A stretch of 22,910 nt of DNA from the IMG/VR virus record IMGVR_UViG_3300020189_000071, positions 1 through 22,910 of that record; one strand, written 5' to 3'. This DNA is from a virus. Below are positions 1-21,358 of this stretch, piece by piece. How positions within the stretch are numbered: the first letter of the stretch is position 1; every line of letters begins with the position of its first letter. Below the pieces are notes generated by a model. It had not been told where the DNA came from. It worked only from the letters and a program-made list of their open reading frames with translations, and searched no databases. The position numbers and the translations under genes were made by a program.

Positions 1-1935
1 AACACAATGGGTTCTATAGTCCGCTGCCTATGGGCTTGGGAAGACACTAATGCCAATTCTTATCTTGGTGTTGGGTCAGAGGGGGATGCTCTTTCTGCTT
101 CTACCGGCGCTCTCCAAGTTATTGAGAGCGGTACGGCGACAGACATTACGCCCCAGCAAACCACTGTTGATATTGCCGTTAGTTTTTCTACAACCGCGGG
201 AAGCAACGAAGTTATCATAACCGATACCGGCAGGAACGCCGACAACTACGACGCGATATACATAAAAACTCCGGTAAGTGTTGGCGGACTTGTTCTTTTT
301 GGGCAATACAGAGTGTATAATCCGGGGGGAGCAGCTAACACTTACCGCATATACGCTACAGACGCCTTAAATGAGCCAGCCTTAGCCACGTCTACCGTAG
401 CTAATGGCGGAGCTGTCCCCGAGTTTGATACAACAAACGGAAGCACGTTTGTATCGATAACTCTTGCTGATCATGGCTATTCCATAGGCTCTACTTTTCC
501 TGTTCTTGTTGCCTCTACCGTTGGCGGAATAACTCTCACTGGAAATTATATTGTTACCGAAATAACGTCTTCTGACGTATTTGTCATATCTGGTACATCA
601 GAAGCAACTTCTACAGCGAACGCTTTTATGAATAGCGGTAATCTTTACGCTATTTTTTACAACGGAATTGGACCTATTCCTGCGGGGACAGGGTACGGCA
701 TCGGGGGGTATGGGCTTGGGGGGTATGGTACCGGCACGTCGCCTACCGCAGGTACCGGTACGCCGATAACTGCTACTGATTGGACCTTGGATAATTGGGG
801 AGAAAACCTCATCTCGTGCCCACTTAATGGGCCGATCTACAATTGGTCCCCTACCGCCGGAGACCCCGTTGCCGTTGTCATCCCCGGAGCACCTCCAGTC
901 AATGACGGCATTTTTGTTGCCATGCCGCAAAGACAAATCATTGCGTGGGGCTCAACTTTCACGGGGGTTAAGGACCCCCTGCTAGTCCGTTGGTGCGACG
1001 TAAACGATTATGATGTTTGGACAGCCTTAATAACTAATCAGGCTGGCTCATACCGCATTCCAAAAGGCTCGCGCATCGTTCAATGCATTCAAGGTCCCCA
1101 ACAAAGTCTCATATGGACAGACATTGGTGTGTGGGCCATGCAATATGTTGGGCCACCATATGTTTATCAATTCAACGAGCTTGGTAGCGGATGCGGGCTT
1201 ATAGGTCGCAAGGCGGCGACATCTATTGGTGGTGTTGTATATTGGATGGGTCCAAGTCAATTTTATAGACTTTCTGGTGGGGGAGTTGAACCTATCCCTT
1301 GCCCAGTATGGGACGTTATTTTCCAAGATTTAGATACCGATAATTTAGATAAAATAAGAGTTGCCCCAAACAGTAGGTTTGGCGAAATTGCTTGGTATTT
1401 TCCAACTTTATCTAATGGGGGCGAAAACGAAGGGTATGTAAAATACAATGTAATACTTAACCAATGGGATTACGGATTTAATACAGACGAAAATCCATAT
1501 GTAGCCCGTTCTGCTTGGATTAACGAGAGTGTTCTTGGTCCCCCAATAGGTTCCGGGCTTGATCAGTATCTTTATCAGCATGAGACATCAACTGACGCGG
1601 ATACGCGCCCAATGACGTCTTCTTTTCAGACCGGTTACTTTGCCATGACTGATGCGGACGTTAAAATGTTTGTTGATCAAATATGGCCGGATATGAAGTG
1701 GGGATATTACAACGGTTCTCAAGGAGCAAACGTAAAAATAACTTTTTATACGGCCGATTATCCCGGAGATACCCCCATTACTCACGGCCCGTACGTAATG
1801 ACTAACTCGACAAAGTTTATAACTCCAAGAATACGAGGGAGGCTCGTTTCTATTAAGGTTGAGAGTAGCGACATTGGGTCGTTTTGGCGGCTTGGTAATA
1901 TACGCTATCGTTCGCAGATTGACGGGAAATACTAA
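1..1935 (+). CDS. Tail nozzle / DNA-stabilisation-like virion protein (P22 gp10-like), 5' partial
   Basis: The frame is open from base 1. The first ATG is at 7, but the sequence there (a GSIVRCLWAWED-like stretch leading to SYLGVGSEGDAL) corresponds to a strand that lies some 50-60 residues into related phage proteins, so the true start is probably upstream of the window. A glycine-rich loop near codons 228-242 (GIGGYGLGGYGTG) and a later stretch with WTDIGVWAMQYVGPP and GLIGRKAA...YWMG are typical of the beta-propeller proteins related to P22 gp10, which sit below the portal, close the filled head and bind the tail. The protein is almost entirely beta-rich with no membrane segment. Its stop (TAA 1933-1935) overlaps the ATG of the next gene by one base, so the two are probably translationally coupled. 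The family assignment rests on remembered motifs. The virion role is strongly supported by the neighbours. Confidence 0.72.
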   Translation, partial: NTMGSIVRCLWAWEDTNANSYLGVGSEGDALSASTGALQVIESGTATDITPQQTTVDIAVSFSTTAGSNEVIITDTGRNADNYDAIYIKTPVSVGGLVLFGQYRVYNPGGAANTYRIYATDALNEPALATSTVANGGAVPEFDTTNGSTFVSITLADHGYSIGSTFPVLVASTVGGITLTGNYIVTEITSSDVFVISGTSEATSTANAFMNSGNLYAIFYNGIGPIPAGTGYGIGGYGLGGYGTGTSPTAGTGTPITATDWTLDNWGENLISCPLNGPIYNWSPTAGDPVAVVIPGAPPVNDGIFVAMPQRQIIAWGSTFTGVKDPLLVRWCDVNDYDVWTALITNQAGSYRIPKGSRIVQCIQGPQQSLIWTDIGVWAMQYVGPPYVYQFNELGSGCGLIGRKAATSIGGVVYWMGPSQFYRLSGGGVEPIPCPVWDVIFQDLDTDNLDKIRVAPNSRFGEIAWYFPTLSNGGENEGYVKYNVILNQWDYGFNTDENPYVARSAWINESVLGPPIGSGLDQYLYQHETSTDADTRPMTSSFQTGYFAMTDADVKMFVDQIWPDMKWGYYNGSQGANVKITFYTADYPGDTPITHGPYVMTNSTKFITPRIRGRLVSIKVESSDIGSFWRLGNIRYRSQIDGKY

Positions 1936-2354: not shown

Positions 2355-3643
2355 CCATTACAGTTTATCCTCCTTATGGATCAACAATAAACAACGCCAT
2401 CTATACGCAATTTGGCGGTGGAACGGTAGACGCCTTTGGTCGTTTGCGGGTGTCTAGTCCGTACACTGTTTTTGATGCGCAGTCTCGATTTGAGTCTACA
2501 GCTTCTTATAGTTATGTTACAGACACCGGCGGCACTACTGCATACAATACCAATAAGTCATCTGTGAACTTGAATGTAACAACAACGTCTGGCTCTCATG
2601 TTCTAGCTCAGACACGCCGCACTTTCCCGTACCAGCCCGGTAAGAGCCTGTTGACGATGCAGACTTTTACCATGAACACGGCTACCACAAACCTGACGCA
2701 GCGGGTCGGATATTACAACGGAAATAACGGTGTTTATTTGGAGCAGGGTCCTAACGGCGTAACGTTTGTTATCCGCACTTATACTGGTGGCTCCGTAGAC
2801 GATACACGCTATGTTGCTCAATCTAATTGGAACGGAGACAAGCTGGATGGAACCGGTCCATCTGGCGTTACACTTGATTTAACAAAAACCCAAATTCTTT
2901 GGTTTGATTTTGAGTGGCTTGGGGTTGGTAATGTCCGCTGTGGGTTCGTTATCAATGGCCAGTATGTTATTTGCCATACCTTTGAGAACGCCAATTTCCA
3001 GACTGCGGTATATATGCAGACTGCAATTTTGCCGCTTAGGTATGAGATATTTACCACCGGCACGACCGCTGGCGCGGCCACTTTGCAGATGATTTGTTCT
3101 ACGGTAATTTCTGAGGCTGGATACCAACAAACATCTCAAAGATACATTGCCCGAAGAGACTCAAATGGCATAACGGTAGCCAATAACACTGGTCTTGATT
3201 TTACGCCTCTGGTATCAATCCGTGTAAATTCAAGTTATTATGGTGCTGTTGTCTTGCCGGAAGGAATACAATTCTACCCAACAAGCAGCGGTTCAACCGG
3301 TTACGAAGTTGTTTTAATAAAGAACGCGACGCTTACCGGGGCAACATGGGGCGGGACAGCCCTGTCTGGTGGGCAAGTGGATGTTGATCTGGCGGCTACG
3401 GCAGCTACTGCTACGGCAAATAACATAGTCCAGACCTCATATGCGGCTGATGCCTCGCAGTCTACCTTCAGCACTGACGTTCCGACTGGTTATAATTTCT
3501 CCCTCCAGTTAGGATATAACGCTACTCTGACAGGGGAAGGATTTGCCAGCAGTGATACCTATACATTGGCAGCCCGTGGGTTGAATAATAGCCCAGTGGG
3601 CGCTGGTACGGGTGCTCTCTCATTCTATAACTTGACGGTGTAA
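2351..3643 (+). CDS. Virion structural protein, beta-rich, function unknown
   Basis: A 430-aa protein beginning at the ATG of an ATGA overlap with the preceding gene. The region near residues 28-45 (DAFGRLRVSSPYTVFDAQ) is a conserved signature seen in structural proteins of several tailed phages, including cyanophages. The protein is rich in Thr, Ser, Asn and Gly, has few charged residues and lacks a signal peptide, as expected of a folded virion surface or tail protein. A carbohydrate-binding or baseplate-like role is possible but not shown. It ends three bases before the next start, inside the same co-transcribed virion block. Confidence 0.7.
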   Translation: MTITVYPPYGSTINNAIYTQFGGGTVDAFGRLRVSSPYTVFDAQSRFESTASYSYVTDTGGTTAYNTNKSSVNLNVTTTSGSHVLAQTRRTFPYQPGKSLLTMQTFTMNTATTNLTQRVGYYNGNNGVYLEQGPNGVTFVIRTYTGGSVDDTRYVAQSNWNGDKLDGTGPSGVTLDLTKTQILWFDFEWLGVGNVRCGFVINGQYVICHTFENANFQTAVYMQTAILPLRYEIFTTGTTAGAATLQMICSTVISEAGYQQTSQRYIARRDSNGITVANNTGLDFTPLVSIRVNSSYYGAVVLPEGIQFYPTSSGSTGYEVVLIKNATLTGATWGGTALSGGQVDVDLAATAATATANNIVQTSYAADASQSTFSTDVPTGYNFSLQLGYNATLTGEGFASSDTYTLAARGLNNSPVGAGTGALSFYNLTV

Positions 3644-4908: not shown

Positions 4909-7900
4909 ATGGGCGGTGGCAAGACGCAAACTACTACACAGCAAGTACAAATACCCCCCGAGGTACTTGCTAGATACAATGCCGTAAACGCCCGTGCCGA
5001 AGCTGTCGCAGAACAACCGTTTCAAGCCTACAGTCAGGATCCCAACGCCTTTGTTGCGCCGCTTACCGCCACGCAGCAGGCTGGCATATACAATGTAAAT
5101 CAGGCCGCTGGAGCTGCACAGCCTTACTATCAGGCTGGCACAAATTTGACTATGGGCGGAGCGCAAAACGTTGGGCCATTAACCCAGCAGCAAATTCAGT
5201 ATTATCAAAACCCATATACTCAAGCTGTAGCAGACCCAACTATCGCCGCCCTCAGACAGCAGCAGGGTGAACAAACTCAGGGTGCTATAGGAAATGCAAT
5301 AAAGTCTGGCGCATTTGGTGGTGACCGGGCGGGCATTCAGATGGCTAATTTAGCCCGTCAACAGGGTCTTGGTATGGCTCAGGCCGTCAACCCGATCTAC
5401 CAGCAAGCGTATCAAAATGCCCTCAATGCGGCCGTAGGTCAGCAAAACGTTGTTGCGCAAGATCTTCAACGCCAGTTGGCTGCAGGACAGCAACTTGGTG
5501 GTCTCGGCACTGGCGCACAGCAGGCCGCACTCAGTGGCGCACAAGCGCAATTGGCTGCTGGCACGACCGAACAACAGACGCAGCAGGCTGGCCTGCAGGC
5601 ACTCTACAATCAATTCCAACAGCAACGTGCCTACCCGTTCCAGCTCGCGCAGTTCCTTGGCAACATCGCTATGGGTACCGGCTCTTTGTCTGGATCCACG
5701 ACCACGACGACGCAGCCTGCGGGCTTCTTCTCCGACGAACGCTTGAAGGAGAACATGCGGCCGGTGGGTGAGACTAAAGATGGCCAGACCATCTATAGCT
5801 TTAATTACAAAGGCGACCCCCGCACACAAATTGGTTTGTCTGCACAGGAAGTTGCCGAAAAGCACCCAGAAGCTGTCAATAAAGCTAAGGTTCCGGGTCT
5901 AGGTGGAGCAGAAGCCCTTACGGTGGATTACAAGAAGGCTACTTCTGATGCGGCCGAGAAGGCTGTCGGGGGCGGCTTACAGGGCGAAAGAATTGCCCCG
6001 AGACCGCCTATGTCAGCGCCCATGTCTTTGGGCTCGCTGAACCTCACTCCAATTGCTAATCCTTTCCAAACACAACCGCCGGGTGGTTTGGGCGGCGCTG
6101 CTCCGGCCATGCTTACCGGTAATATTCCAATCCAGCCGTTTGCGGGTGAAATCAATCGCGCCCCGCCGACGGAAGGCGTGTCCCTCGGCACTCGCGAAGG
6201 GTGGCAGGCCGAGCTGGCGTCTCTGTACAATGGGCGTCCGTTTGAGAGCGGTGAGCAGTACGCTAACATGCGTAGGCAGCAACTTATGAACAAATTGGCG
6301 GGCATTGACGCACAACCGATGGTCATCACTCCCCCCGCGCCCCCAGTAGTTGTAGATAATTGGAATTACGACGATAACTGGGCTCGCGGCGGGTACGTTG
6401 ATGAGCCGGGTTACTATGGTGCTGGCGGCCGTCCTGAGCGTGCTCGCGGGGGTATGAGCGATTCGACATGGAAAGCCATTGTGGAGGCAGTGGGACGCAA
6501 CATAAATATTGGCTCTCAGTCTTACGCGGGTGCGTCCGGAACACCGGGCGGCGGGGGCGGCGGGGGCGGTTACGCCGCTATGGGGACGAAGAACCCCCTT
6601 GCTGTTGCCAAACTGGCGACCGCCAGCCGTCTCCCTTCCCGAGGGCCGAGCGGCCTCGCGCAGGCTGCATCTATAGGACAGCAAGTGGCATCCATAGCGA
6701 AGGATGTCTACGGGGGATATAAGAAAATTACCGAAAAGAATGACGATAAGAAACCAAATGGAGCCAAGACGAAAGCTAATTATGGGGGTCGTATCGGATA
6801 CCAAGGGAAGGGCTTTGTTGAGGGGGAAATGCCCTACTCAGATGAAGAAGATAACAATTCAGACTTCTTTAGGAGAGATAAAGGAATTAAGCCGGTAAAC
6901 GCAGGTTCTTCTGATCTTACCGCTGCGCTTAATGACGTTAACAAGGGTCTTGCAAGCACCCCAAGAGGAGATCCCAAAAAACCTCCTTCCAGTGCCCCGC
7001 GGCCAAGCGGCGGAGGCGTTAATCAACTTATGAATGTCGTCAAGACGGGTAAATCGCTTGTTGATACGGCTTCTAAGGCTGGATCGGGCCTTAGCAGTGT
7101 CCTCGGCGGTGCAGGGGCTGAAATGGCCGCTGGCTCGGGTCTCGGTGCCGCGGGTGCTGAGACTGTCGCGGGCGGCCTTGGTGCCTTGGGCGCTGAAATG
7201 GCCGCCGGTACTGGTGCCGGGCTCGGCATGCTGGGCGCTGAGGCCGTTGGCGCGGGAGCTGCCGGAGCAGCAGGAGCTTTGGGTGCCGAAGCAGCCCTTG
7301 GAGCCGTCGCTGCTCCCGCACTGGCTGAAGGCGGTAAGGCTGCGTTGGCGGGATTGTTGGCACTCCTCTCCGATCCGCGTAGCAAGCACGACGACGAAGT
7401 TGCTGGCCACCTGTTCAATGGCCAGCCGGTCCATACCTTCAAGTACAACGGCGACAACAAGACCCGCATGGGCCTGATGACGACCGAGAGCGACCGCCGC
7501 GCCGTCCACAATCTTGGCGGTCTTGAGATGCTCGACTACAAGAAGGCGACCGACGTGGCTGCGGGACTGGCTCCCCGGCAGGCTGCTCAGAGAGGCGGCC
7601 CGTTTGTCGATCCCGACATGCCTGCCATAGGAGCTGTCGAGACCGCCCTCAATGTGCCCCGACAATATCAGCCGATTATTGCCAAGGTATCGGAAAAGAC
7701 TGGCGTTCCGGCGAATATAATTGCTGCTCTTATGTCTCAGGAAAGTAGCTTCAACCCAAAGGCTGTTGGCCGCTCAGGTGAAATTGGCTTAACACAGATT
7801 TTGCCCAGCACTGCCCGTGATCCGGGCTACGGCATGAAGGGTGTTGATCCTGAGAGCTTGCGGGATCCGCAGGCCAACATCCTGTTTGGCGCAAACTATC

Positions 7901-17239: not shown

Positions 17240-17374
17240 TTACCTACCGCAACAAACTAACTCTGCAATCACGCTGTAATGGCCGTGAGGCTCCAGCATT
17301 GGCGTTATCAGGCACCCGCTCGTCCAGACAGTATTGACGTCGTGCAGGCGGGCGTAGAAACAGTATCTTATCAT
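17240..17374 (-). CDS. Small hypothetical protein (44 aa)
   Basis: A short gene between the polymerase and the PD-(D/E)XK-like gene. ATG at 17374 overlaps the polymerase stop as ATGA, and the TAA (17240-17242) ends one base before the next ATG, so it fills the apparent 132-base gap exactly. The peptide (MIRYCFYARLHDVNTVWTSG, then CLITPMLEPHGHYSVIAELV and CCGR) is Cys-rich with four Cys and two His, has no membrane span, and could bind a metal. No family is recognised. The coding call rests on fit and coupling, not homology. Confidence 0.55.
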   Translation of the reverse strand: MIRYCFYARLHDVNTVWTSGCLITPMLEPHGHYSVIAELVCCGR

Positions 17375-19149
17375 ACTTCAACCCCGACGTCTTTTAATGC
17401 ATCTTTAGCCATGAGTAAGTATTTGGCGTAATGCACATCGCGCGGCATTTCTTTGGGCAACTCCATCAAAGGTCTAGCGCCCTCCGATCGCGGAACCCGG
17501 TTGGAGTTCCTCGCGTAGTGAATTGCTTCCTTCTCGATTGCGTCCGCAGAGTAATAAAACCGCACAGCCTTGCCGAGAAAATGACCACGCCATATTGCGC
17601 CGCCCGTAACAGTTCGTATGTGAACGAACCGCGTAACATCTTTGCTGGTCAGTATCGTATTGCTCAGTGATGTTCCTGCGCTCAGATAATTGGCGACGGC
17701 GTCACTGACGATCTGGAAGTCGGCGTTCTTGTTCAGCAGCGGGTCCGCATAGACGCCCTTGCGCTTGGTCTTGCCGTCCAGCTTAACCGCAATGTAGTTG
17801 TTCACGTCCCGGCTGTGCAGCGAGCGATAGTCTGACCGCTCAAGCTCGAAGCTGGTCTGCATCGACCATTCGAACGTCACGCCCATGATCTTGTCTTCGA
17901 GTGCCTTGTCGAACAGAACGACGACGCCGTCGGTGTTGGCGCTGACGACCTTTGCGCCCGCGCCCTCCAACATCTCGATCAGCATCAACAGGCAGAGCTG
18001 GCCCGTGACCGTCGTCTGGATCATCAGCTCCGGCGCGTACAGGCTGGAGTACATACTGCCCAGCTTCCCAAACGACCCGTTCACGACGATCTTCAGGGTG
18101 TCTGCCGTCACCTTGTCGCCCGCAGCCTTGGCCCGCAGTCGCCGCGTTACAATGTCCTTGTAGACCGTCAGAAAGTCAGCGCCCATCGACTTCGGCGACA
18201 GGCGCTGCTTCAGGATGATGTTGGGATAGTACGAGGAAACGTCGAAGTCGGCAAGGATCTGCTCGGATGTTGCCACGACGCTGCGCGACTTCTCGCAACT
18301 ATGCAGGCCGCCAATGCCCATCTTGTACTCGGTGTCACCGATCATGATCTTCTTGTCCTGCAGCTCTTTTGGGAGCTGCACAGAGCCGTTCAGTCCGACG
18401 GGGAAGTCGCTATTCAGAACCATGCGGAATACTTCCTGCAGGTGCGGCGACTGGAACTCAACGAAGCCGGGGTCTTCGTACTTCAGCAGAGACCCAATCT
18501 CAGCCTTGCGCGGCTTGTAGGACTTGCCGGTCAGCTCTGTCAGCTCGTGTTTTATGACCGCCTCGGCTATCTGTGCGTCGCTCTTGCTGCGCAGATCAAT
18601 TCCCCCATACTGCTGCCCCATTTCCTCTCGCAGGCGTATCTGCCCCTCCAAAGCTTTGTAGAGACGCTCTGTGGTGTCGAGATCGTTTGCGCAATACTTC
18701 TTCAGCTCTTCCGCCTGATCGGCGGTGATCATCGCGTCTGGCTGGATTGGCAGATCCTGCATGCGGGGAGCATTCAGCCTGCCACCGTAAATTTTCAGGC
18801 TGGCTTTGCCGGGCGCTACCTCAAAGATGTCTATGTGGTCCCACGGGTCAGTCTGCAGGTCGTGCCTCTGCGCAATTTTCCACGCGGGCAATTTTGACTT
18901 AATCAAGTCGTCCGAAAGTTCTTTTATCTGTGAACATTCCCAACCGGCCAATACGGCCGCAATTATGTATAGATCGTAGGAATTTCCGTTGAAGCTGACC
19001 GTCGTGTCTGACGCCATCAGGCGATTTATTCTGCGGGGGTCGATTGATTGGCCCTCAAACATTTCAATCGTTGCGTACTTTCCTGTCTCTAATTTTTTGA
19101 ACATAAGTAAGAAGTAGTTTTGGTAAACTTCGCAATCTAGAACTAGCAT
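17371..19149 (-). CDS. Compact family B DNA polymerase with 3'-5' exonuclease
   Basis: A 592-aa replicative polymerase from the ATG at 19149. An upstream TTG at 19182 with a GGAG site is an alternative, adding 11 residues. Exonuclease motifs: Exo I LVLDCEVY (Asp5, Glu7), Exo II FNGNSYD (Asp59), Exo III YCAND (Tyr152, Asp156). Polymerase motifs: A, DVSSYYPN (Asp303); B, KIVVNGSFGK (Lys353); C, NTDG (Asp407), where the first Asp of the usual DTD is Asn; a late KTKRKG basic motif follows. Only about 50 residues separate A and B, so the fingers are very short and the TPR1 insertion of protein-primed polymerases is absent. That agrees with a phage-encoded primase at the right edge. It should copy the phage genome with proofreading. 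The 5' end is overlapped by the HNH gene. Confidence 0.85.
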   Translation of the reverse strand: MLVLDCEVYQNYFLLMFKKLETGKYATIEMFEGQSIDPRRINRLMASDTTVSFNGNSYDLYIIAAVLAGWECSQIKELSDDLIKSKLPAWKIAQRHDLQTDPWDHIDIFEVAPGKASLKIYGGRLNAPRMQDLPIQPDAMITADQAEELKKYCANDLDTTERLYKALEGQIRLREEMGQQYGGIDLRSKSDAQIAEAVIKHELTELTGKSYKPRKAEIGSLLKYEDPGFVEFQSPHLQEVFRMVLNSDFPVGLNGSVQLPKELQDKKIMIGDTEYKMGIGGLHSCEKSRSVVATSEQILADFDVSSYYPNIILKQRLSPKSMGADFLTVYKDIVTRRLRAKAAGDKVTADTLKIVVNGSFGKLGSMYSSLYAPELMIQTTVTGQLCLLMLIEMLEGAGAKVVSANTDGVVVLFDKALEDKIMGVTFEWSMQTSFELERSDYRSLHSRDVNNYIAVKLDGKTKRKGVYADPLLNKNADFQIVSDAVANYLSAGTSLSNTILTSKDVTRFVHIRTVTGGAIWRGHFLGKAVRFYYSADAIEKEAIHYARNSNRVPRSEGARPLMELPKEMPRDVHYAKYLLMAKDALKDVGVEV

Positions 19150-19534
19150 GAGGAGTGGCCTCTTTCTTTTTGAAGTTGACAATTATTGCTCCGCCGCGAC
19201 CCTTCTGGAGCATGTCCATAAAATTGTCTCGCAGAGTACCTAAACGCAGATGGGCGGGGTTGCAACAGCGGCGGTTGTCGCAGGAGTGCATTATGACATT
19301 CTTTGCACCTGTAATGTCAACTTTTGGGTGGGCTAGATGAAAACTTATTCGATGAGCAGAATAAACTTTTTTATTTATCTTAAATCTACCGTATCCGGCC
19401 GCGGTCGCCGTGGACTTCCAATTCCAGCATTCGTCTGACGACCTTACGTCTACTTTAGCCCAAAACCGTTTGACGTCTCTATACGTCATCGAAGGTATTT
19501 TCTGAGGCCGGTGACGTGTGCGTTTGAAATTCAT
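19064..19534 (-). CDS. HNH homing-type endonuclease
   Basis: A 156-aa protein from the ATG at 19534. A longer GTG start at 19573 lies inside a terminator-like hairpin and is less likely. The ribosome-binding site is weak. Core motifs: a FWAKVDVRSSDECWNW-type N-terminal segment, GYGRFKINKKVYSAHRISFHL, then the metal/zinc-binding HSCDNRRCCNPAHLRLGT and DNFMDMLQKGRG, as in free-standing phage HNH endonucleases. Such genes copy themselves by cutting a cognate site that lacks them. The last 40 or so codons overlap the first part of the polymerase gene in another frame, so the tail of this protein is overprinted on polymerase coding sequence. The inferred history is insertion at the polymerase 5' end, with the HNH frame running on until a chance stop. 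Confidence 0.85.
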   Translation of the reverse strand: MNFKRTRHRPQKIPSMTYRDVKRFWAKVDVRSSDECWNWKSTATAAGYGRFKINKKVYSAHRISFHLAHPKVDITGAKNVIMHSCDNRRCCNPAHLRLGTLRDNFMDMLQKGRGGAIIVNFKKKEATPHASSRLRSLPKLLLTYVQKIRDRKVRND

Positions 19535-19552
19535 TTGATACCCATAAAGTAA

Positions 19553-19582
19553 CCCCGCCGAGGGCTGGTACACTCGGCGGGG
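19553..19582 (-). terminator. Stem-loop 1: perfect 10-bp hairpin, terminator-like
   Basis: CCCCGCCGAG (19553-19562) and CTCGGCGGGG (19573-19582) pair perfectly around a 10-base loop. In the leftward transcript the stem is followed by TTACTTTAT, a weak U-rich run, so it may terminate part of the transcription coming from the ssDNA-binding gene before it reaches the HNH and polymerase genes. Confidence 0.65.
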
Positions 19583-19623
19583 AAGTCTGACGTGAAGGTG
19601 TCATCGGAGATTCCGTCAGACTT
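19583..19623 (-). promoter_or_regulatory. Stem-loop 2: perfect 10-bp stem, 21-base loop
   Basis: AAGTCTGACG (19583-19592) pairs perfectly with CGTCAGACTT (19614-19623). One bulged base allows three more pairs (GAA with TTC). It directly abuts stem-loop 1 with no spacer. No coding function is possible for this region, which lies between two gene ends. Confidence 0.6.
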
Positions 19624-19624
19624 A

Positions 19625-19651
19625 CTTGAGCGTCATGGAGAACCGCTCAAG
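19625..19651 (-). promoter_or_regulatory. Stem-loop 3: perfect 8-bp stem, 11-base loop
   Basis: CTTGAGCG (19625-19632) pairs perfectly with CGCTCAAG (19644-19651). It is one base from stem-loop 2 and starts six bases after the ssDNA-binding gene's stop codon. It is therefore the first structure formed in the 3' untranslated part of that mRNA. Confidence 0.6.
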
Positions 19652-19657
19652 ACTACT

Positions 19658-20182
19658 CTACATGAAATCAACGTCTTCGTCATCATCGAATGCGTCGAAG
19701 TCATCTAAACTCGCACTCACGCCATCAGAGAACGGTTTCCCGTCCTTGAAGAACTGAACCGCGAGAAGGTTCGCGTTAATCCGCTTGCCATACTCATTAT
19801 TCTGAGCCCACAGCTCGACCGACGCATTGACGTAGCAGCCTGCGTATAGACGATTGTCGTCCTCAGTTAGTGCGCTCTTGTCTCGGTCAATTACCATCGG
19901 ACGCTTCTGGCTGCTGGCCTTGAACGACATGGTGTTGTCGTATCCGTCGTAGCCAATCTCGTCTCCGTCTTTCATGCAAATCTTGTCCGGACCGAGTTTC
20001 GCGCCCTTGAGATTTGTTTTAATCGCGGCCTTAATCGCCTCGTTGATCTCTTCGATCTTGTCGGCGTGCTTGTCCTTGTCAAGGAGGAAGGTTGCCTCGA
20101 ACTTCGTTTCCTTGCCGTTGAATACGGCTTTATGGAAAATGCTCGGGAAGGAGAGGCGGACATTGTTTAGTTTAAGTTTCAT
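19658..20182 (-). CDS. DUF2815 single-stranded DNA-binding protein
   Basis: A 174-aa protein; ATG at 20182 with GAAAGG seven bases upstream. The sequence (KLKLNNVRLSFPSIFHKAVFNGKETKFEATFLLDKDKHADKIEEI..., later RPMVIDRDKSALTEDDNRLYAGCYVNASVELWAQNNEYGKRINANLLAVQFFKDGKPFSDG) follows the DUF2815 family, an OB-fold ssDNA-binding protein characterised in the Enterobacter phage Enc34. The acidic C-terminus (DDFDAFDDDEDVDFM) is the kind of tail that ssDNA-binding proteins use to recruit partners. It should coat single strands during replication and recombination. Three stem-loops follow the stop codon and may set its expression above that of the polymerase. Confidence 0.87.
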   Translation of the reverse strand: MKLKLNNVRLSFPSIFHKAVFNGKETKFEATFLLDKDKHADKIEEINEAIKAAIKTNLKGAKLGPDKICMKDGDEIGYDGYDNTMSFKASSQKRPMVIDRDKSALTEDDNRLYAGCYVNASVELWAQNNEYGKRINANLLAVQFFKDGKPFSDGVSASLDDFDAFDDDEDVDFM

Positions 20183-20230: not shown

Positions 20231-21358
20231 TTACTCATCAAAATCGTCTGGGTCAACTACGTCAAACATATCAACCACAGACTTTATCGCTGGCCGCGGA
20301 TCTTGCTCCGGCGCAATGGTCGGCGCACCTTGCGGCTTTATAATAAGGTGAGAAATTTTATTAGCGTGTTTCTTGCCAATCAGTTTCTCAGCCTGCGACG
20401 GAGAAATCAGTTTCCTGCTGAAAATCTGATTATCGTCGTAATACTCAGACAGGAACTCTTCCGCGTCACTCTCGTCCTGCCACTTCCGCAGGCTGCGACC
20501 CTCTACCAACTTGAACCCCTCAAACCCTTCGCCCGCGACGAGCTTCTCTTTGACTGTCTTCTCTACAGCCGACAGCCACGCCTCGATTATGGGCTTGCGG
20601 TTCATGACCAAGGACAACTGCTTTTCCGTGAGACTGTTTGCTGGCTTCGATGGTTCGAGATCCTCGAAGTCTGCAAGAATTGTCTCTGCAGTCATCGCCA
20701 TCAGTGCCGGGCATGTTGCTTTTGCCTTACAGAACCGGCACTGTTTTTCTCCCGGTACGCGCGGCGCGTCGGGCTCTTGCGTCGCCTCGGCAGCCTGCCG
20801 CATGGCTTCGCCAAATTTCATCAGGTCAGAGACCGAAATCTCAAACTCGCTGATGTGATCTAGCCGCGGCTGGACGATACTCACCTTCACATTCTTTGGA
20901 CGCCACACCCACTCGAACTCGCTGTATGCGCCAAGCGCATACAAGAGCGCCTGCGGGTTGTTATCCGCAAACACCTGCACGCCCTTGCCATATTTCAAAT
21001 CAACGACGTGCAGTGTGTCGTCGGTAATCAGGATCGTGTCCGCCGTGCCGAAACCGTCGGGCACCCAGTCGGCGAAGCTAACGCGGCGTTCTACAAAGAG
21101 AGCCTTGAGCTTCCGCTCAGGGTAGAGGTTCATGACGTAGTCGACATAGAGCTGGACGCCGTCGATCATCTCCTGATCTTTAGTGTAGTCCCGCGGTTCT
21201 CCCTGCCGGTTCAGAACCTTTTCCATGATGTCATGCGCACGAGTACCCTCCTCGGCGAACGGCGACGAACGGTCGGGAATACCTTCCTCCGCCGCGACTG
21301 AGCCGGGGCACACCGACCAGCGATGTGCCCCGCTCGCGCTCAACTTAGCGTGAGCCAT
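20231..21358 (-). CDS. DUF2800 Cas4/RecB-like PD-(D/E)XK nuclease
   Basis: A 375-aa protein; its ATG overlaps the upstream stop by one base (TGATG). The N-terminal [21 protein letters not shown] is the DUF2800 signature. Nuclease residues visible: His42 ([12 protein letters not shown]), Asp107 (GFGTADTIL), Asp120 and Lys122 (VVDLKYGKG). Four cysteines, Cys17 plus Cys207, Cys210 and Cys216 ([15 protein letters not shown]), are arranged like the iron-sulphur clamp of Cas4 and AddB nucleases. It should be an exonuclease that works with the downstream ssDNA-binding protein, and the DUF2800-DUF2815 order is conserved in many phages. A 48-base gap separates it from the ssDNA-binding gene. Confidence 0.87.

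Follow-up and report, generated by a model that had tools for sequence, protein, structure and literature searches.

A three-hairpin array downstream of a phage single-stranded DNA-binding protein gene and a putative operator hairpin at the start of the neighbouring polymerase gene

The DNA analysed here (the window), a virus record of 22.9 kb (22,910 nt), has on its minus strand genes for an exonuclease (DUF2800), an Enc34-type single-stranded DNA-binding protein (SSB), an endonuclease of the HNH type, and a DNA polymerase. The SSB gene (19658–20182; phrog_112; PF10991, E = 1.7e-38) ends in a TAG stop codon at 19658–19660, 6 nt ahead of an array of three closely spaced hairpins. Beyond the array lie the HNH open reading frame (ORF; 19064–19534, minus strand), which is inserted between the SSB and polymerase genes and is missing from this slot in most relatives, and the polymerase gene (17371–19149, minus strand; phrog_1252, E = 9e-186). 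The most likely start of the HNH gene is the ATG at 19534, since the mechanically assigned GTG start at 19573 falls within the third hairpin. The polymerase is assigned the ATG at 19149 because the conserved N-terminus of its family begins there, the TTG at 19182 being upstream of that conserved start; the HNH ORF, at its 3' end, consequently overlaps the start of the polymerase gene. A preliminary description of the region had the leftward transcript passing from the hairpins into the polymerase, but the gene that comes first after them is the HNH ORF.

Read along the coding (minus) strand, the array consists of HP1 (19651–19625), HP2 (19623–19583), and HP3 (19582–19553). HP1 has an 8-bp stem (19644–19651 paired with 19625–19632) and an 11-nt loop that includes the invariant sequence UUCUCCAUG (19634–19642), HP2 has a 10-bp stem (19614–19623 with 19583–19592) and a variable 21-nt loop, and HP3 has a 10-bp stem (19573–19582 with 19553–19562) and the invariant loop UGUACCAGCC (19563–19572). 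The three perfect inverted repeats reported earlier from the raw sequence are all present, as judged from repeat listing, direct reading, and alignment. The density of structure that had been called striking is indeed beyond chance: when the whole window was randomised 300 times under a first-order Markov model, three non-overlapping perfect repeats (arm of at least 8, loop of 3–30) never fell within 110 nt. The minus-strand fold of the array has a predicted energy of -55.4 kcal/mol (z = -4.9) and was matched in stability by none of 200 shuffles; the plus strand is structured to an equal degree. After correction for G+C content, few other sites in the window fold as strongly as the array, the strongest being at 20900–21020 (minus strand) within the exonuclease gene. 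A closing stem of AGTA with TACT, once thought capable of joining the hairpins into a four-way junction, appears only in the predicted fold of the window and is lacking from the folds of both diverged copies described below.

A search of IMG/VR with the SSB and polymerase recovered the region in identical form in L001 and L002 and in diverged form in L003 and L004, the SSBs of the latter two being 91–93% identical to that of the window. Folded singly, L003 and L004 form the same three hairpins, 0–1 nt apart, with z-scores of -5.9 and -4.9, respectively. Compensatory substitutions in homologues, which the preliminary description had asked for, were found both in an alignment of the three sequences and by hand count. 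All 22 aligned pairs are paired in all three sequences (100% of cells) and 6 of the 22 have changed on both sides, nearly all of this covariation, among the only three distinct array sequences found, representing one evolutionary split; in a control with partners shifted by 1–3 columns, pairing fell to 27–47% and double changes were absent. The 22-pair count took in only the inner five pairs of HP1, and because MAFFT misplaced one gap in this hairpin a hand count was added; in the correct register, five of the eight HP1 pairs are double-changed, one of these being G-U in L003 and mismatched (G-G) in L004. By the same manual count, HP2 has two double-changed pairs and HP3 has 2 of 10. G-U pairs are tolerated in HP1 and HP2 of L003, and these two pairs only lean towards RNA; the covariation itself does not separate RNA from folded single-stranded DNA.

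The loop sequences UUCUCCAUG (loop 1) and UGUACCAGCC (loop 3) are identical in all three, although fourfold-degenerate sites in the flanking genes differ by 32–43%; the HP2 loop is entirely different in L003 and L004. Fixed loops on exchanging stems point to selection on structure together with loop sequence, and the comparison indicates that the array is a selected element. A guess made from raw sequence about phage RNA structure has in this case passed a comparative test, and the combination of fixed loops and changing stems is a signature of the kind associated with sequence-specific recognition. Scans of IMG/VR for the loop patterns gave, outside the window's clade, chance matches without matching paired flanks, and a nucleotide search found the array in no named phage. 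A repeated or mobile element was considered and rejected, in that each carrying record has a single copy and the array is absent from the records of eight other relatives and from the other loci scanned. Pairing between loops, or between a loop and a downstream ribosome-binding site, was likewise discarded, the short matches seen by eye not being kept across the window, L003, and L004.

Counting the window's own type, the slot between the SSB and polymerase genes could be compared across 67 distinct relatives. The median stop-to-start distance between the two genes is 65 nt; the slot measures 56–108 nt in 56 of the 67 and contains insertions in 11. In short slots a hairpin follows closely on the SSB stop codon, and most also have a 13-nt hairpin where the polymerase gene starts; a U-rich tail (5 or more U among the 8 nt following a stem) is found in about 28 of the 67 distinct slots. 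The earlier proposal that the SSB 3' untranslated region carries a structured element is thus upheld by the compensatory changes and by the position of the array, where nearly all relatives have a post-SSB hairpin. The comparison further indicates that the array takes the place of the single GC-rich SSB 3' hairpin in a small clade, and that the HNH gene entered behind it. Insertions into the slot are frequent, among them the HNH gene of the window, another HNH gene carried by L107, and further segments, coding or structured (L039/L041/L047, L043, L091, and L118/L119). In L003 (4337–4594) and L004 (3121–3378), an ORF of 85 aa belonging to no known family and an intrinsic terminator lie between the array and the HNH gene; this separation shows that the array goes with the SSB rather than the HNH gene. 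A different structured segment of roughly 120 nt fills the slot in L039 (approximately 3020–3190), L041, and L047, and had no Rfam match in any of the three. The slot of L118 and L119 has an insert of 460–770 nt after the SSB gene, with a T-arm-like TTGGGTTCAACTCCCAA stretch in L118; a group I intron or tRNA was rejected here, as neither ARAGORN nor the Rfam models match.

The hairpin at the polymerase start of the window, GAGG-CCACU-CCUC, is 13 nt long, lies directly before the AUG (19150–19162, minus strand), and is a putative translational operator. Across relatives it conforms to NNGG-[CAU][CUA]AC[CU]-CCNN (also written NNGG-NNAC(C/U)-CCNN) followed by AUG. Among 19 distinct hairpins of this kind, the outer positions are paired in 15, with G-C, C-G, A-U, and U-A all represented, compared with a mean of 6.9 and a maximum of 13 in shuffles. 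All 19 have A-U or G-C as their second pair, and all 19 have AC in the loop, the search pattern itself having required AC. Departures among polymerase starts include CG in L095 and L101 and absence of the motif in L069, L084, and L091. The motif occurs once in the window and 67 times in 376 kb of relatives' DNA, where 62 of the matches coincide with or closely precede a start: 59 have ATG or GTG within 3 nt, and three (L061, L079, and L085) are just upstream of or overlap the polymerase ATG. The remaining five (L076, L080, L094, L097, and L098) are one opposite-strand motif, TTGGACACTCCAATGA, near 549–588 (minus strand), a second copy of this hairpin type that possibly lies at another gene start.

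Unbiased scans of IMG/VR gave 12 matches to GAGGCTACCCCTCATG, 10 of them directly before a polymerase of the window's type and two before HNH genes (L193 and L197), and seven matches to the compensated form AAGGCTACCCCTTATG, three of them before a polymerase of this type. The isolates PHS21 and AL, both phages of Pseudoalteromonas, have GCGG-CUACC-CCGC and GUGG-CUACU-CCAC, respectively, a compensated pair in which the Shine-Dalgarno sequence is outside the hairpin, so that the Shine-Dalgarno sequence does not by itself account for the pairing. The motif was absent from Seuratvirus and the other Queuovirinae tested, an Acidovorax phage, and Vibrio LP.1. On sequence evidence, the polymerase-start hairpin covaries and is nearly exclusive to the window's polymerase type, and it is a stronger general result than the array. 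Its fold alone (-4.1 kcal/mol) is not unusual among shuffles, and a hairpin this weak would need a bound protein.

In T4 and RB69, the polymerase represses its own translation by way of a hairpin in which the loop AC matters, the loops being -UAAC- in T4 and -CAAC- from SELEX (PMC3014915). The hairpin described here resembles the T4/RB69 gene 43 operator in its location at the polymerase translation start, at or overlapping the ribosome-binding site, and in its AC-containing loop (here -NNAC(C/U)-). It differs in having a much shorter stem (4 bp), in abutting the AUG and enclosing the Shine-Dalgarno sequence in most of the phages, and in belonging to an unrelated phage group. The putative likeness to a gp43 operator is one of resemblance rather than demonstrated homology, because the window's polymerase matches B-family structures only weakly, in the palm region.

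Comparison of the array with described RNA classes yielded no covariance-model match among 4227 Rfam families for 19300–19800 up to E = 1, and a tRNA or tmRNA was rejected by ARAGORN. Like the Rho-independent terminators and attenuators of phage replication genes, the array offers GC-rich pairing right after a stop codon (HP3 itself is a GC-rich stem of 10 bp, against the 5 bp or more expected of a terminator), and the slot of relatives often holds a hairpin with a U-tract. Unlike them, it comprises three abutting hairpins with two sequence-invariant loops, and the weak U-rich run noted previously is present in the window (UUACUUUA) but is not conserved, being replaced by CCCCUCC in L003. A consensus terminator scan placed no minus-strand terminator at the array. 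A simple or canonical intrinsic terminator is disfavoured because no U-tract is conserved, and the fixed loops speak for a partner that binds them; their invariance suggests something more than a passive terminator.

Our tentative reading, in which we place a little less than even confidence, is that the array is an SSB 3' RNA element, transcribed on the minus strand, that protects the SSB mRNA, limits read-through, and binds a partner by its loops. The array would form, and protect, the 3' end of an abundant SSB mRNA, and only part of transcription or translation would pass through it into the HNH and polymerase genes. Such a limit would be in keeping with SSB probably being required in quantity and polymerase in small amounts. 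On this reading the loops UUCUCCAUG and UGUACCAGCC are probably contacted by a protein or a further RNA that tunes read-through, while the polymerase would be under a second, separate control exerted by the 13-nt hairpin that adjoins or overlaps the ribosome-binding site of its gene. Stabilisation of the mRNA and attenuation by the array are plausible, and the array represents a new variant within intergenic RNA control in phages. A bolder and rather unlikely extension is a new class of regulatory RNA, in which a phage replication protein reads the two fixed loops on their freely covarying stems and the array acts jointly with the putative operator at the polymerase start, giving a two-part control of SSB and polymerase dosage of T4-independent origin.

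Other readings can be built on the same features. The two invariant loops atop covarying stems, in an independent, gene-like structure 3' of a coding sequence, would also suit a small regulatory RNA or its precursor, the exposed loop UCUCC of which is complementary to GGAGA and could pair with the Shine-Dalgarno sequences of other mRNAs. We consider this unlikely: the complement of loop 1 is not in excess in the window, words resembling GGCTGGTACA number 30 against 17 in shuffles but are scattered over the window on both strands and not at gene starts, and neither an own promoter (consensus scan) nor an Rfam match was found. Distinctly unlikely is an mRNA binding site for the SSB or polymerase, acting either as an autogenous operator or as a decoy akin to the polymerase-start hairpin. 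The array is located between the two genes, a UAC(C/U)-type sequence occurs in the HP3 loop and in the polymerase-start loop of many relatives, and T4 gp32 and gp43 autoregulate by binding their own mRNAs (PMC3014915), but HP3 misfits the polymerase-start motif, the single window match to which lies at the polymerase start, and the shared UACC is only four letters long. The T4 gene 32 operator shares with the array the presence of a conserved structured element in an SSB mRNA; it is, however, a pseudoknot 5' of the gene, whereas the array consists of three simple hairpins 3' of it.

The proximity of HP3, which ends at 19553, 18 nt ahead of the likely HNH ATG at 19534, raises the further prospect of a control leader that holds translation of the HNH homing endonuclease low, in the manner of stable hairpins known upstream of the ribosome-binding sites of I-TevI, mobE, and seg43(25) (PMC2988022). 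We hold this to be more doubtful again, as the HNH ribosome-binding site is not sequestered within a hairpin and the array stays with the SSB in L003 and L004, where the 85-aa ORF and terminator intervene before the HNH gene. Equal folding of both strands and the neighbouring replication genes would be in keeping with an element acting as DNA, in which hairpins extruded from single strands would serve as a signal for replication or be recognised by a nuclease. This is very improbable given the placement of the array right after a stop codon in a slot of terminator-like hairpins, the tolerance of G-U pairs in L003, and the single copy per record.

The occurrence of the polymerase-start hairpin in dozens of relatives, two isolates among them, makes it testable whether polymerase autoregulation through an AC-loop hairpin has arisen more than once, outside T4. 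The hairpin is also seen in association with other genes. In L107/L193 (approximately 5828–5843, plus strand), an unrelated HNH gene lies exactly between the hairpin and the polymerase gene, such that the HNH gene has gained the hairpin and the polymerase has lost it, and in L197 a hairpin of the same type precedes another HNH gene near terminase genes.
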